Positions 22,727 to 34,445 of a stretch of DNA of 64,000 nt are shown one piece after another. Position 1 is the stretch's first letter. Each line of letters starts with the position of its first letter. The notes beneath the pieces are model-generated. The model did not search any database, had not been told where the DNA came from, and saw nothing but the letters and a program-made list of their open reading frames with translations. Origin of the DNA: Sordariomycetes sp. S80-01Y (lineage: Eukaryota; Ascomycota; Sordariomycetes). The stretch lies in NCBI GenBank assembly GCA_037042185.1, contig JAXQJY010000031.1, forward strand, positions 1,860,001-1,924,000, written 5' to 3'. Both the position numbers and the translations under genes were made by a program.

Positions 22727-25008
22727 ATGCCTCGACCAAAGGTACACCCCAGCATGCGACAGCGCGCCTCGGAGGCGTGTAACTCCTGTCGCGAAGCGAA
22801 GAAGAGATGCTCTGGCACCGCTCCCTGCACCCATTGTCTGCGACGCGGCACTGGCGACTCATGCTACATCTCACATCGCCCGCGAGGTCATCGGGGCCAT
22901 CGCCAGTCTCTCCCAGAGGAACCACCAAGCCAGATCTTGAACCAGGACGTCACACCATATAGCCTTCCGACGTTCGAAGGTATCCGGCCCGTCACTTCGG
23001 CAGAGCGCTCATCTCTCCGAGCACTTCAGTCGCCAGTCACATCGGCATTGCTTGGTCCACAGCAAGCCGCGACTCCCGTCAATCCAACGCCGCCTTCAAG
23101 AACGAACGAGTTTCGTCCAATCTCGCCTTCAGATTCCAGAACGACTGAGGCTGATGGATCGACGGCGAGAAGTCACGGGAGACCCTCAGTGTCATCAACA
23201 TCCAGACCTGTGCAAGAGTGGGAGTCCGAGCCATCTCTGCTCTCAGTCAAGCCATCGTCAAGGATGCTTTTGAACCTGAGAGGAGAGCGAGGTACGCGTT
23301 AAACTTCTGTGTATATGTATAGATATCTGACAAGCGCGCGTAGTGTACATCGGAGGCGGAGGCTCACTCTCTTTCCTGCAACTCGTCAGAGGCATTGTCT
23401 CTGACAAGATCGGGCCCTCTCAGTTCTCTCGCGGCGGAAACGCTGACACGATGCTGGAGAAGGAGTCTCCCCAGTCGCATACGCATACCCCAAACTTCAA
23501 CGCCATGAGTCCCGAAGCCAAGATGATGTGCGCAGACTCATACTACGGCGTAGTTGGTGGCTTTCTCGACGTCTTCTTACCAAATGAACTCGAGACCATG
23601 CTCTCGGCAGGCTCTGGGCGCGGGCTTACCAAGTCGAAAAGGTCTCTGACGGATTTAGTTCTGGCGATTGGCCTGCAAAGCGACCCCTCCAGTGACACCC
23701 ACGATCGAGAGCTAGCTTACTTTCGAGAGTCACAGATTCAGGTGTTTGCTGGAATGCTCGAAGATCCTGACATTGACATGGTCCGGATCTTCCTGATCAT
23801 GTCTTTCTATCTACTGGGCGAATGTCGACGCAACACAGCCTTCCTCTATCTAGGCATCGCGACGAGAGCGGGCGTTGCCCTTGGCCTACACAGTCGTGAG
23901 ACGTACACAGATATGAACGACCCGAAACATCAGTTGAGGCTACGCGTGTGGATGAGTCTTCGCGTACTTGATATTGTGGTCAACTCTTTGCTCGGGCGGC
24001 CGGCAGCGACGGCTGGGGTATACTGCGACATGCAGCCCCTCATTGATGAGGTATTGGCAAATTCCCAAGATCGCGGCTTGGCTTGCTTGGGAGCCTCTTA
24101 CCGCATCGTGGCACTTATCAACAATATTGTCGACAAGATGTACGACAAGAAGGAGATCACTATTCTAGCGATTGAGGATCATCTGCAAGAGTTGCAGCGG
24201 TGGAGCCAAAGTTTGCCAGACTTCCTACGGACAGCCCCATCGGAAGACCAGGCCGCTGTGTCGCGCGAAAAGGGAGCGATTGGGAGAGTTCATGTCTCTT
24301 GCCTCTACTACTTTGCCGTCACATTGGTCACGCGACCCATTCTAGTGTCTTCACTCACGCAGCAACCGGCCGCCGGTTTGGTGCACTCCCAGCTCGCTAC
24401 GGCGTGCTTGGATGCGGCCATGTTCATCGTTCAGACTTGTGCTGGAGCGCAAAAGCACGGTATTTTTCAGGCCAATATGTGCATCCTGAAGTAAGTTCTC
24501 GGCCTTGCCGGCCTTTCGCGACGAGTACGATCCTAACATCAGAAATAGGGCAATAATCTTCCCCGCAGGACTTGTGCTCGGTTTCCAGATCTTCGCGAAG
24601 AGCAATGTCGATTACGGCGTTGAATCGGCCTTCCATGAAGCGCGCGAGCTTTTGAAATTTCTGGGCACGAAAAGTCCTCAAGCCGCACTCTACTATGACA
24701 TCCTGACATCCCTGTCTAACTCCATCACGGAGTATCGACAACGCGCAGTAACGAAGGGCAGGAGTTCCTACGTCTCGAAGATCTTCAACTTCGATGGCGG
24801 ATCTGGGAGGCCGTCTCAGAGCAACGCCACCACGGAGATGGAGACGGAGCCGTCAGGCGGAGATGAGCAGCGGACACAGATGGATGACTTACTAGCGACG
24901 TTGTCATTTGGCCAGAACACGCCTTTGGGGAGCGGCGACATGCTTTTTGACTGGGACAGTCTCGACATATCGCAATGGGATAGCTTTCCCTACGCGGCTG
25001 GTATCTGA
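22727..25008 (+). CDS. Zn2Cys6 transcription factor of the aromatic cluster
   Basis: Three exons, 22727-23291, 23344-24490 and 24549-25008 (introns 52 and 58 bases), give 723 residues. The zinc cluster has Cys 18, 21, 28, 34, 37 and 46 (CX2CX6CX5CX2CX8C). A Ser/Pro-rich linker leads to a fungal-specific regulatory domain with RIFLIMSFYLLGECRRNTAF and GLHSRET, typical of PF04082 proteins. The C-terminus is acidic and aromatic (MLFDWDSLDISQWDSFPY), like an activation domain. The last intron has two possible acceptors; the one ending at 24548 keeps MCILKAIIFPAG in frame. It is the only regulator inside the 22.7-34.4 kb run and is transcribed toward it, so it is the natural pathway regulator. The inducer is not known. 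Confidence 0.9.
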
Positions 25009-25716
25009 AATCGAGAAGGGATTGATAGGTGTTTAGCGGATCGACGAATGATGTAGCACGGCGTTGAGGCGATGGCTTTGTTCGCGGATTCAAGAAGGCA
25101 TGGACCCGACTTTTGTGGGAGAAGTCTGAATCTGATGCAAATTTTCGAACTCCTTGATATTTGACCCAGCTCTGTTCTTGACTGACTTGTGCTGGCGGCA
25201 AAACACCCAGGATCAAGGTCTAGGTGTCAGAGCCACGGATCATGAAGCGCAGCCGCCGCTCCGAACAAGCGCCCCGATCATCCGCACACCCTTCAAATCG
25301 CTCAGGTATAGCGACCATGGTCTCACACGAGGACGCTGACTTCCTGGGCGGCTGCACGGCATGTCGGATATCATCTCCCCTTCAGAGGCCCCATCCTCCC
25401 CTCCCACCCACAGGCGGGTATGTTCTGCCCTTACCCGACACACCTTATCGGCCGGATCTGGGCCGTCCTTGGGATTCACCGCACCATCTCAAGTCGAATT
25501 AGGCTTATCGGTGTTCGATGGGCGGTTCATGCCCTTCCGCTATCAGCTGGCTCGGTTGGTAGCGGGCGTCGATAAGTGGCCGTCGCGAAGGTATAAGGTG
25601 GTGCTGAAAGGATGCCCTCGTGAAGTTACTCAGCATTGCCTGCTTCCCAACTGTACATCTCTTTTTCAATAACCTTGCAAGCTAGTTGAACCAAGGAATC
25701 ACCACAAACCTTCAAC
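25009..25716. promoter_or_regulatory. promoter region of flavoprotein monooxygenase
   Basis: This is 708 bases between the regulator stop and the monooxygenase ATG. It contains CGGCCGG at 25449-25455, the reverse complement of the CCGGCCG core found in other promoters of the region, 261 bases before the ATG. A TATAAGG-like box is near 25600. No gene seen. Confidence 0.45.
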
Positions 25717-32931: not shown

Positions 32932-33387
32932 TGCGCCTGTATTCCGGATGTCTTTCGCTTGTCACTTCCTGCGAAGGTTCAAGACGGACTTTTCGCCGAT
33001 AAGTCAACGTTGCTTCGAAGCTCTCTCGGAACGGAGAAGCCGTGGCCCTGACATTACTAACAGACTCAACCCCCGTATGCGATGCGGGGGACATCGCGGG
33101 GCGGTGACAGTAGCCGCACCTTATTCGAACTGTATTTGTCCCTCGGAATTACCAATGATAGGCTCGTTCCCCACTATCCGCACGGTGCATGATCCGGAGC
33201 GGCTGCGCCCCGCACTCGCCGATAAACCCAGTGGGTGCCGCTGTGTTCCGGCCGGTGTAAGTGCGCGGCGGCCACGAGGGGGGAAGAGAGAGGGGAAATG
33301 TTGGCTATAAGGCCTTCGCTCACGGTTGGATATTTTTCTGACCTGACATATTTCCATCTGTTCTAACAACCCGTACACACATCCAAG
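32932..33387. promoter_or_regulatory. divergent promoter of SnoaL-like gene and decarboxylase
   Basis: This is 456 bases between two ATGs. TTCCGGCCGG is at 33246-33255, 133 bases before the decarboxylase ATG and about 315 before the SnoaL-like ATG. ATGATCCGGAGC at 33189-33200 is also found at 41108-41119 in another divergent promoter of the window. Confidence 0.55.
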
Positions 33388-34445
33388 ATGCTCGGGAAAG
33401 TTGCGTTCGAAGAGGCCTTCATCCTCCCCAGCTTCAGGGAGAAGCAGAGGTGGTGGGCTGGGCTGTTCGCCATTGACCCTGACAAGCATGTCCGCGAGAT
33501 TGAAGACATCACGGACATTCGTCTGAAGTACATGGACAAGCACGGCGTTGGGTACACAATTCTTTCATACACCGCACCCGGCGTGCAGGACATCTGGGAC
33601 CCCAAGGAGGCCCAGGCTGAGGCCGTCAAGATCAACGACTACATCGCTGAGCAGATCAAGGGCCACCCCGACAGACTCGGTGCTTTCGCGTAAGTTCGTA
33701 AGCAGATGTAAAGAAATTATTGCTGATAAAAATTAGCACTCTGTCCATGCACAACCCCAAGGAGGCTGCCGAGGAGCTCAAGCGCTGCGTCACAAAGTAC
33801 GGGTTCAAGGGCGCCCTGGTGAACGACACCCAACGCGCCGGCGCCGACGGCGACGACATGGTCTTCTACGACAACGAGGAGTGGGACCCCTTCTGGTCCA
33901 TGGTCGAGGAGCTCGACGTGCCCTTCTACCTGCACCCGCGCAACCCCACGGGCACAATCTACGACAAGCTCTGGGCCCAGCGCAAGTGGCTCATCGGGCC
34001 TCCCCTGTCCTTCGCGCAGGGCGTCTCGCTGCACGCGCTGGGCATGGTCACCAACGGCGTCTTCGACCGCCACCCCAAGCTGCAGATCATCCTGGGCCAC
34101 CTGGGCGAGCACATCCCCTTCGACATGTGGCGCATCAACCACTGGTTCGAGGACATCAAGAAGCCGCTCGGCCTGACCTGCAAGAAGACGATCCGCGAGT
34201 ACTTTGAGCAGAACCTGTGGATCACCACCAGCGGGCACTTCTCGACGACGACGCTGCAGTTCTGCATGCAGGAGGTCGGCGCCGACAGGATCCTCTTCTC
34301 CATCGACTACCCCTTCGAGAACTTCGCGGATGCCTGTGACTGGTATGATCAGATGCACCTGAACACGTCTGACAAGAAGAAGATTGGGAGGGACAACGCC
34401 AAGAGCTTGTTCAAGCTGGGCGCTTTCAAGGATAGCGAGGCTTGA
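33388..34445 (+). CDS. 2,3-dihydroxybenzoate decarboxylase (amidohydrolase-2 family)
   Basis: Two exons, 33388-33689 and 33737-34445 (47-base intron), give 336 residues. The N-terminus [11 protein letters not shown] carries Glu8 and Ala10, His167 is in YLHPRNP, and Asp291 is in FSIDYPFEN. From memory of the family, Glu8, an Ala instead of His at 10, His167 and an Asp near 293 mark the fungal 2,3-dihydroxybenzoate decarboxylases, while gamma-resorcylate decarboxylases keep His10. [20 protein letters not shown] and [17 protein letters not shown] are further family text. The enzyme removes CO2 from 2,3-dihydroxybenzoate to give catechol without oxygen. It is cytosolic (no leader). Substrate of neighbouring dioxygenase and product here coincide. 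Confidence 0.92.

Follow-up and report, generated by a model that had tools for sequence, protein, structure and literature searches.

The window analyzed here is a 64,000-nt stretch of contig JAXQJY010000031.1 from the ascomycete Sordariomycetes sp. S80-01Y. An earlier note on this DNA had proposed a salicylate/2,3-dihydroxybenzoate (2,3-DHBA) catabolic cluster with its own regulator, and at positions 22727-34445 we were able to read seven intron-containing genes of the classes it stated, with Pfam matches above cut-off for six of the seven. All seven were modeled from ATG to stop with GT..AG introns, the splice sites being chosen from sequence alone, without RNA support. The note's further claim that no unrelated gene lies between them stood in part: a codon-usage scan of the intergenic space, trained on five of the seven genes, flagged none, but the same scan overlooked the hydrolase gene and exon 1 of the regulator gene. 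In this 30.9-Mb genome, the only close 2,3-DHBA decarboxylase gene is four genes away from one of the four places where an intradiol dioxygenase was found, and some of the genes are neighbors in other fungi; on these grounds the grouping was judged to exceed chance. We consider it probable, though well short of certain, that the genes constitute a regulated peripheral-plus-lower catabolic cluster for 2,3-DHBA, and perhaps salicylate, acting through catechol.

The firmest assignment in the cluster is the 2,3-DHBA decarboxylase predicted from the gene at 33388..34445 (+ strand; two exons, 336 aa, one splice variant). Its product is identical to the solved 2,3-DHBA decarboxylase 6m53 at 275 of 335 residues (82%; 667 bits), compared with scores of 390 bits for a solved salicylate decarboxylase and 302 bits for a gamma-resorcylate decarboxylase. 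It also matches PF04909 (124 bits) and contains Glu8, His167, and Asp291, which we take to be metal ligands. A search of the genome did not find a second close copy, the next match being 24% identical. The identity to 6m53 and the conserved metal-site residues bear out the earlier assignment of this enzyme and argue strongly for the 2,3-DHBA part of the reading.

The intradiol ring-cleavage dioxygenase is encoded at 27528..28453 (- strand; two exons, 289 aa in the model used, with four variants of 288-292 aa). It matches PF00775 (154 bits) and PF04444 (92 bits), both against a cut-off of 27, and a residue count confirmed the Fe ligands proposed in the note (Tyr168, Tyr202, His226, His228), so that the sequences support the classes of both members of the decarboxylase-dioxygenase neighborhood. 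The choice of catechol over hydroxyquinol as its substrate fared less well, and several scores weigh against it. Among solved enzymes, the highest match was to PnpC (199 bits), presumably a hydroxyquinol-type dioxygenase, followed by a 6-chlorohydroxyquinol enzyme (8r2x; 192 bits) and two hydroxyquinol enzymes (1tmx, 161 bits; another, 154 bits), with the best solved catechol 1,2-dioxygenase, 2azq, below all of these at 130 bits. The protein also fell below the cut-offs of two catechol 1,2-dioxygenase models (TIGR02439, 158 vs. 392 bits; TIGR02438, 143.5 vs. 404 bits), but these models serve bacterial and archaeal annotation, and fungal enzymes may fall short of them regardless. A second dioxygenase, on contig C10 and 51% identical to the first, also scored higher with PnpC (187 bits) than with the best catechol enzyme (119 bits), and it adjoins a homolog (562 bits) of the carboxy-cis,cis-muconate cyclase 1jof at about C10:2782.4-2783.6 kb. 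Because this second enzyme ranks alike although it lies beside a muconate-cyclase homolog, the ranking of solved structures cannot separate the two substrates, and the window dioxygenase may use either catechol or hydroxyquinol. Published passages describe the same dioxygenase-beside-cyclase arrangement for CDO2 of Ceratocystidaceae (PMC8896014) and list both catechol and hydroxyquinol as substrates of Aspergillus niger CrcA (PMC12388069). Catechol is favored because the cluster holds a 2,3-DHBA decarboxylase.

A hydroxyquinol variant would have the flavoprotein make 1,2,4-trihydroxybenzene, with resorcinol as substrate or else a dihydroxybenzoate that undergoes decarboxylative hydroxylation; ring opening by the dioxygenase would then yield maleylacetate, a reductase encoded elsewhere would convert this to 3-oxoadipate, and the CoA-transferase would activate the product. 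We regard this as unlikely, even though it would account for the best solved dioxygenase matches being of hydroxyquinol type and for the best solved matches of the flavoprotein being decarboxylative 1-hydroxylases. A precedent exists in the Scedosporium hydroxyquinol cluster (SAPIO_CDS9497-9500), where an intradiol dioxygenase gene adjoins a CoA-transferase gene as in the window; that cluster, however, also carries a maleylacetate reductase and a P450, and the excerpted description names no decarboxylase or flavoprotein (PMC8283699). The window decarboxylase is of the 2,3-DHBA type and not of the gamma-resorcylate type, and the ranking shared by the second dioxygenase further blunts the argument for hydroxyquinol. 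PF00465, which we take to be the maleylacetate reductase family, has no gene nearby; its two genome matches are on contigs C12 and C11. Separately, pieces of an intradiol dioxygenase were observed at C14:617-623 kb near two open reading frames (ORFs) labeled by eye as a phenol-hydroxylase-like flavoprotein and a fungal-transcription-factor-like protein, possibly representing another degradative cluster.

The FAD-dependent aromatic hydroxylase gene (25717..27189, + strand; three exons, 455 aa, one variant) encodes a flavoprotein that matches PF01494 (67.9 bits). Its earlier designation as a salicylate 1-hydroxylase was not supported by comparison with the salicylate 1-monooxygenase model TIGR03219, and the scores count against a salicylate-consuming cluster of the form first proposed. 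The cut-off is 446 bits and the spliced protein reached 99, a score exceeded by single exon-wise matches at five other genomic places, which makes these better candidates; the best single exon of the window flavoprotein scored 53.1 bits. All five are on contig C10: at 3213572 (167.7 bits, read across three stops), at 138222 and 138898 (one place; 142.5 and 113.6 bits), at 741562 (123.2 bits), at 380822 (108 bits), and at 414812 (104.7 bits). None of the 39 exon-wise TIGR03219 matches in the genome reached the cut-off. The best NCBIfam model for the window protein was instead 3-hydroxybenzoate 6-monooxygenase (NF006021; 148 bits, below the cut-off of 459). Its solved relatives were led by the decarboxylative vanillate 1-hydroxylase 8x38 (135 bits) and the 4-hydroxybenzoate enzyme 8gsm (122 bits), ahead of 4bk1 (102 bits), which is titled "probable salicylate monooxygenase" and which we take to be a 3-hydroxybenzoate 6-hydroxylase, and of the salicylate hydroxylases 5evy (77 bits) and 6bz5 (72 bits).

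Two of the C10 places have neighbors of their own. The flavoprotein at C10:138222-139545 is of the TropB/salicylate-hydroxylase type and fits TIGR03219 better than the window gene does; its first exon scored higher with TropB (149 bits) than with salicylate hydroxylase (122 bits), and an ORF labeled by eye as alpha/beta-hydrolase-like lies directly downstream. At C10:3213572-3218553, a PF02515 gene lies ~3.4 kb away from the TIGR03219-matching flavoprotein, and its open frame resembles the two-part CoA-transferase described below.

A link to salicylate is nevertheless suggested by Fusarium graminearum. The window flavoprotein is 80.3% identical over 427 aa to FGSG_09063, of which it is probably an ortholog. 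Salicylate is reported to induce FGSG_09063 about 30-fold, and at 3 h in infected wheat the reported induction was about threefold (PMC6331432); FGSG_09061, two tags away, is described as a 2,3-DHBA decarboxylase that is up-regulated by salicylate (PMC8395176). Of all the evidence, this pairing speaks most clearly for salicylate or 2,3-DHBA as the substrate of the seven-gene set, and it would suit a flavoprotein that makes 2,3-DHBA. Two separate papers assayed F. graminearum hydroxylases, namely FGSG_03657 in one and FGSG_08116 in the other (PMC6331432 and PMC6410203, respectively). A contrary indication comes from A. niger, for which the excerpted report gives no evidence of salicylate degradation via 2,3-DHBA and states that deletion of dhbA left growth on salicylate undiminished (PMC12388069). 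The salicylate link is retained through the two induced Fusarium genes and not through a salicylate 1-hydroxylase identity, and a role in salicylate breakdown can be considered plausible, not established. Were the flavoprotein an anthranilate hydroxylase making 2,3-DHBA, the cluster would mainly serve the fungus's own anthranilate, derived from tryptophan, and not plant salicylate. Such a route would agree with a flavoprotein outside the salicylate 1-monooxygenase type, but not with the reported induction of its Fusarium relative by salicylate, and we find the route quite improbable. Efe-shyA was also considered as the Epichloe ortholog of the window flavoprotein and appeared an unlikely one, judging by lengths only (a 431-aa product vs. 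450 aa for the Epichloe relative).

The remaining enzymes may act in the lower pathway. A two-part fungal CoA-transferase is encoded at 29195..30978 (- strand; three exons, 560 aa, one variant), and a PF02515 match over cut-off, a CaiB fold, and a candidate catalytic Asp414 place it in class III (CaiB/BaiF). Its residues 1-250 (30978-30209) lie outside the Pfam match and hold strongly conserved motifs, such as YHIHGSL, that also occur in relatives. Circular permutation was rejected, as 260 residues of model positions 252-553 align with positions 48-428 of the 9zav chain; the alignment suggests that a middle part is shortened. One pattern scan of contigs for a bacterial context gave 31 matches and no confirmed relative. 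The alpha/beta hydrolase (31318..32278, + strand; three exons, 286 aa in the model used, with three variants of 275-286 aa) matches PF12697 (69.9 bits) and has Ser101 within a GHSMG motif. Its description as PcaD-like holds in that the 3-oxoadipate enol-lactonase PcaD (TIGR02427) is its best NCBIfam profile, covered from position 2 to 249 of 251, but the score of 68 bits misses the cut-off of 256. For the small protein at 32383..32931 (- strand; three exons, 147 aa used; two variants, of 144 and 147 aa), no Pfam or NCBIfam model matched, and the SnoaL-like label is carried by an ortholog predicted to adopt the NTF2/SnoaL fold, which places it in the NTF2-like superfamily.

Several observations argue against a complete lower pathway at this locus. 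Neither a muconate cycloisomerase nor a thiolase is among the seven genes (the genome was not searched for thiolase), and the earlier proposal that the cluster by itself brings ring carbon to central metabolism cannot be upheld for that reason. Nor can a place in the pathway be taken as proven for the class III enzyme, because growth of A. niger on 2,3-DHBA is reported to need KstA, a beta-ketoadipate:succinyl-CoA transferase (PMC10406623), and because PF01144 CoA-transferase genes exist at three places in the present genome. In favor of the proposed route, on the other hand, a search of the genome for muconolactone isomerases of the bacterial-type family found none, and the 1jof-like cyclase is present on C10. 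It is conceivable, if rather unlikely, that the lower branch is non-orthologous, with an NTF2-fold muconolactone isomerase and a class III CoA-transferase replacing the class I 3-oxoadipate transferase, or with muconate processed through CoA esters and without lactones. A proposed lower pathway that employs an NTF2-fold protein together with a class III CoA-transferase of the two-part fungal type looks new.

The putative regulator (22727..25008, + strand; three exons, 723 aa used; six open splice variants of 723-728 aa) is a Zn2Cys6 transcription factor, with matches above cut-off to PF00172 (24.3 bits) and PF04082 (38.7 bits) and a match to the six-Cys motif. Co-regulation receives no help from the intergenic regions: no exact word of 7-9 letters is common to all five, and two 7-mers occur in four of the five (CGG pairs were also examined). 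We claim no operator because no word occurs in every region. The cluster is bordered on its left by an MFS transporter gene (19706..21145, - strand; PF07690, 136.6 bits; partial model without 5' exons), whose nearest NCBIfam profiles are a D-galactonate transporter (174 bits; cut-off 395) and the 4-hydroxyphenylacetate permease HpaX (148 bits; cut-off 615). An MFS gene is reported to adjoin dhbD in aspergilli and penicillia (PMC7842363), and by association the window transporter may be the aromatic-acid uptake gene of the cluster.

In the 2,3-DHBA pathway that we favor, 2,3-DHBA would be taken up, or made by the flavoprotein from salicylate (or anthranilate), and the 33388 decarboxylase would convert it to catechol, which the 27528 dioxygenase would open to cis,cis-muconate. 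Muconolactone would then be formed by a cyclase whose gene lies outside the cluster, and be converted to 3-oxoadipate by the PcaD-like hydrolase, the NTF2-fold protein, or both. Activation of this acid, or of a different acid of the pathway, with CoA would fall to the class III CoA-transferase, and the genes would be turned on by the Zn2Cys6 factor. If this is right, the window offers a compact gene set for studying fungal removal of salicylate and 2,3-DHBA, with its likely regulator named, and the class III CoA-transferase, the PcaD-like hydrolase, and the NTF2-fold protein join the catechol pathway.

Taken together, the locus is a real, partly conserved, and ordinary catabolic cluster, related sets of which are already known in other molds. 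The shyA-dhbA-crcA genes of A. niger and A. nidulans represent the same three enzyme classes and lead from salicylate and 2,3-DHBA through catechol to muconate (PMC12388069, PMC7842363), with later steps in Aspergillus assigned to AN3895, AN4061, AN4531, and AN10495; no Aspergillus is named among 26 homologs of the NTF2-fold protein, 12 of which are given with an organism. Clusters pairing a catechol dioxygenase with a salicylate hydroxylase (CCH-SAH hybrids) are an established class, catalogued in Trichoderma under a rule that allows at most six genes between the two homologs (PMC10735191). In those clusters of Trichoderma and other fungi (the Gluck-Thaler and Slot scheme), a catechol-dioxygenase homolog adjoins a salicylate-hydroxylase homolog, as do the genes at 25717-27189 and 27528-28453 in the window, which fall within that spacing; the class differs, as excerpted, in being defined by core-gene homology. 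No description of the seven-gene set was seen in the open-licence papers covered, for which no search named all seven genes together.

Conservation was followed for the flavoprotein, CoA-transferase, and NTF2-fold genes by reading locus tags by eye, in the best 120 of 3048 CoA-transferase matches, the best 120 of 1499 flavoprotein matches, and the 26 NTF2-fold homologs, lists in which an absence is weak evidence. Two patterns there run counter to a fixed gene set. Among the matches listed, seven assemblies have two or three of the genes under one tag prefix, and in three of these the genes are far apart (QQZ08, G7Z17, V2G26). The closest named flavoprotein relatives, from Emericellopsis and Hapsidospora, are not named in the best 120 CoA-transferase matches or among the 26 NTF2-fold homologs (12 with organism given), so the lower part of the cluster may be patchy. 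Both patterns would be expected if the neighborhood were a loose one, with the pathway made up of the decarboxylase, flavoprotein, and dioxygenase, and with the CoA-transferase, hydrolase, and NTF2-fold protein acting on another acid and only traveling along. We find this decidedly doubtful, since the CoA-transferase adjoins the dioxygenase in Stylonectria, where gene model P0089 fuses the two in the window order (71% and 66% identity, respectively), and since all three tracked genes lie within five tags in Conoideocrella (flavoprotein QQS21_007002, CoA-transferase QQS21_007005, NTF2-fold QQS21_007007). Twelve of the 23 species present in both best-120 lists are compatible with the CoA-transferase and flavoprotein genes being on one contig, in that the longest contig has an equal length for both genes, although a shared large contig does not amount to closeness, and several of the other 11 are represented by different assemblies. 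The favored catechol-route cluster thus appears partly conserved across Hypocreales and in certain ascomycetes outside that order: in four of the seven assemblies (QQS21, HIM, ACHAPX, EsDP), two or three genes lie within five tags.

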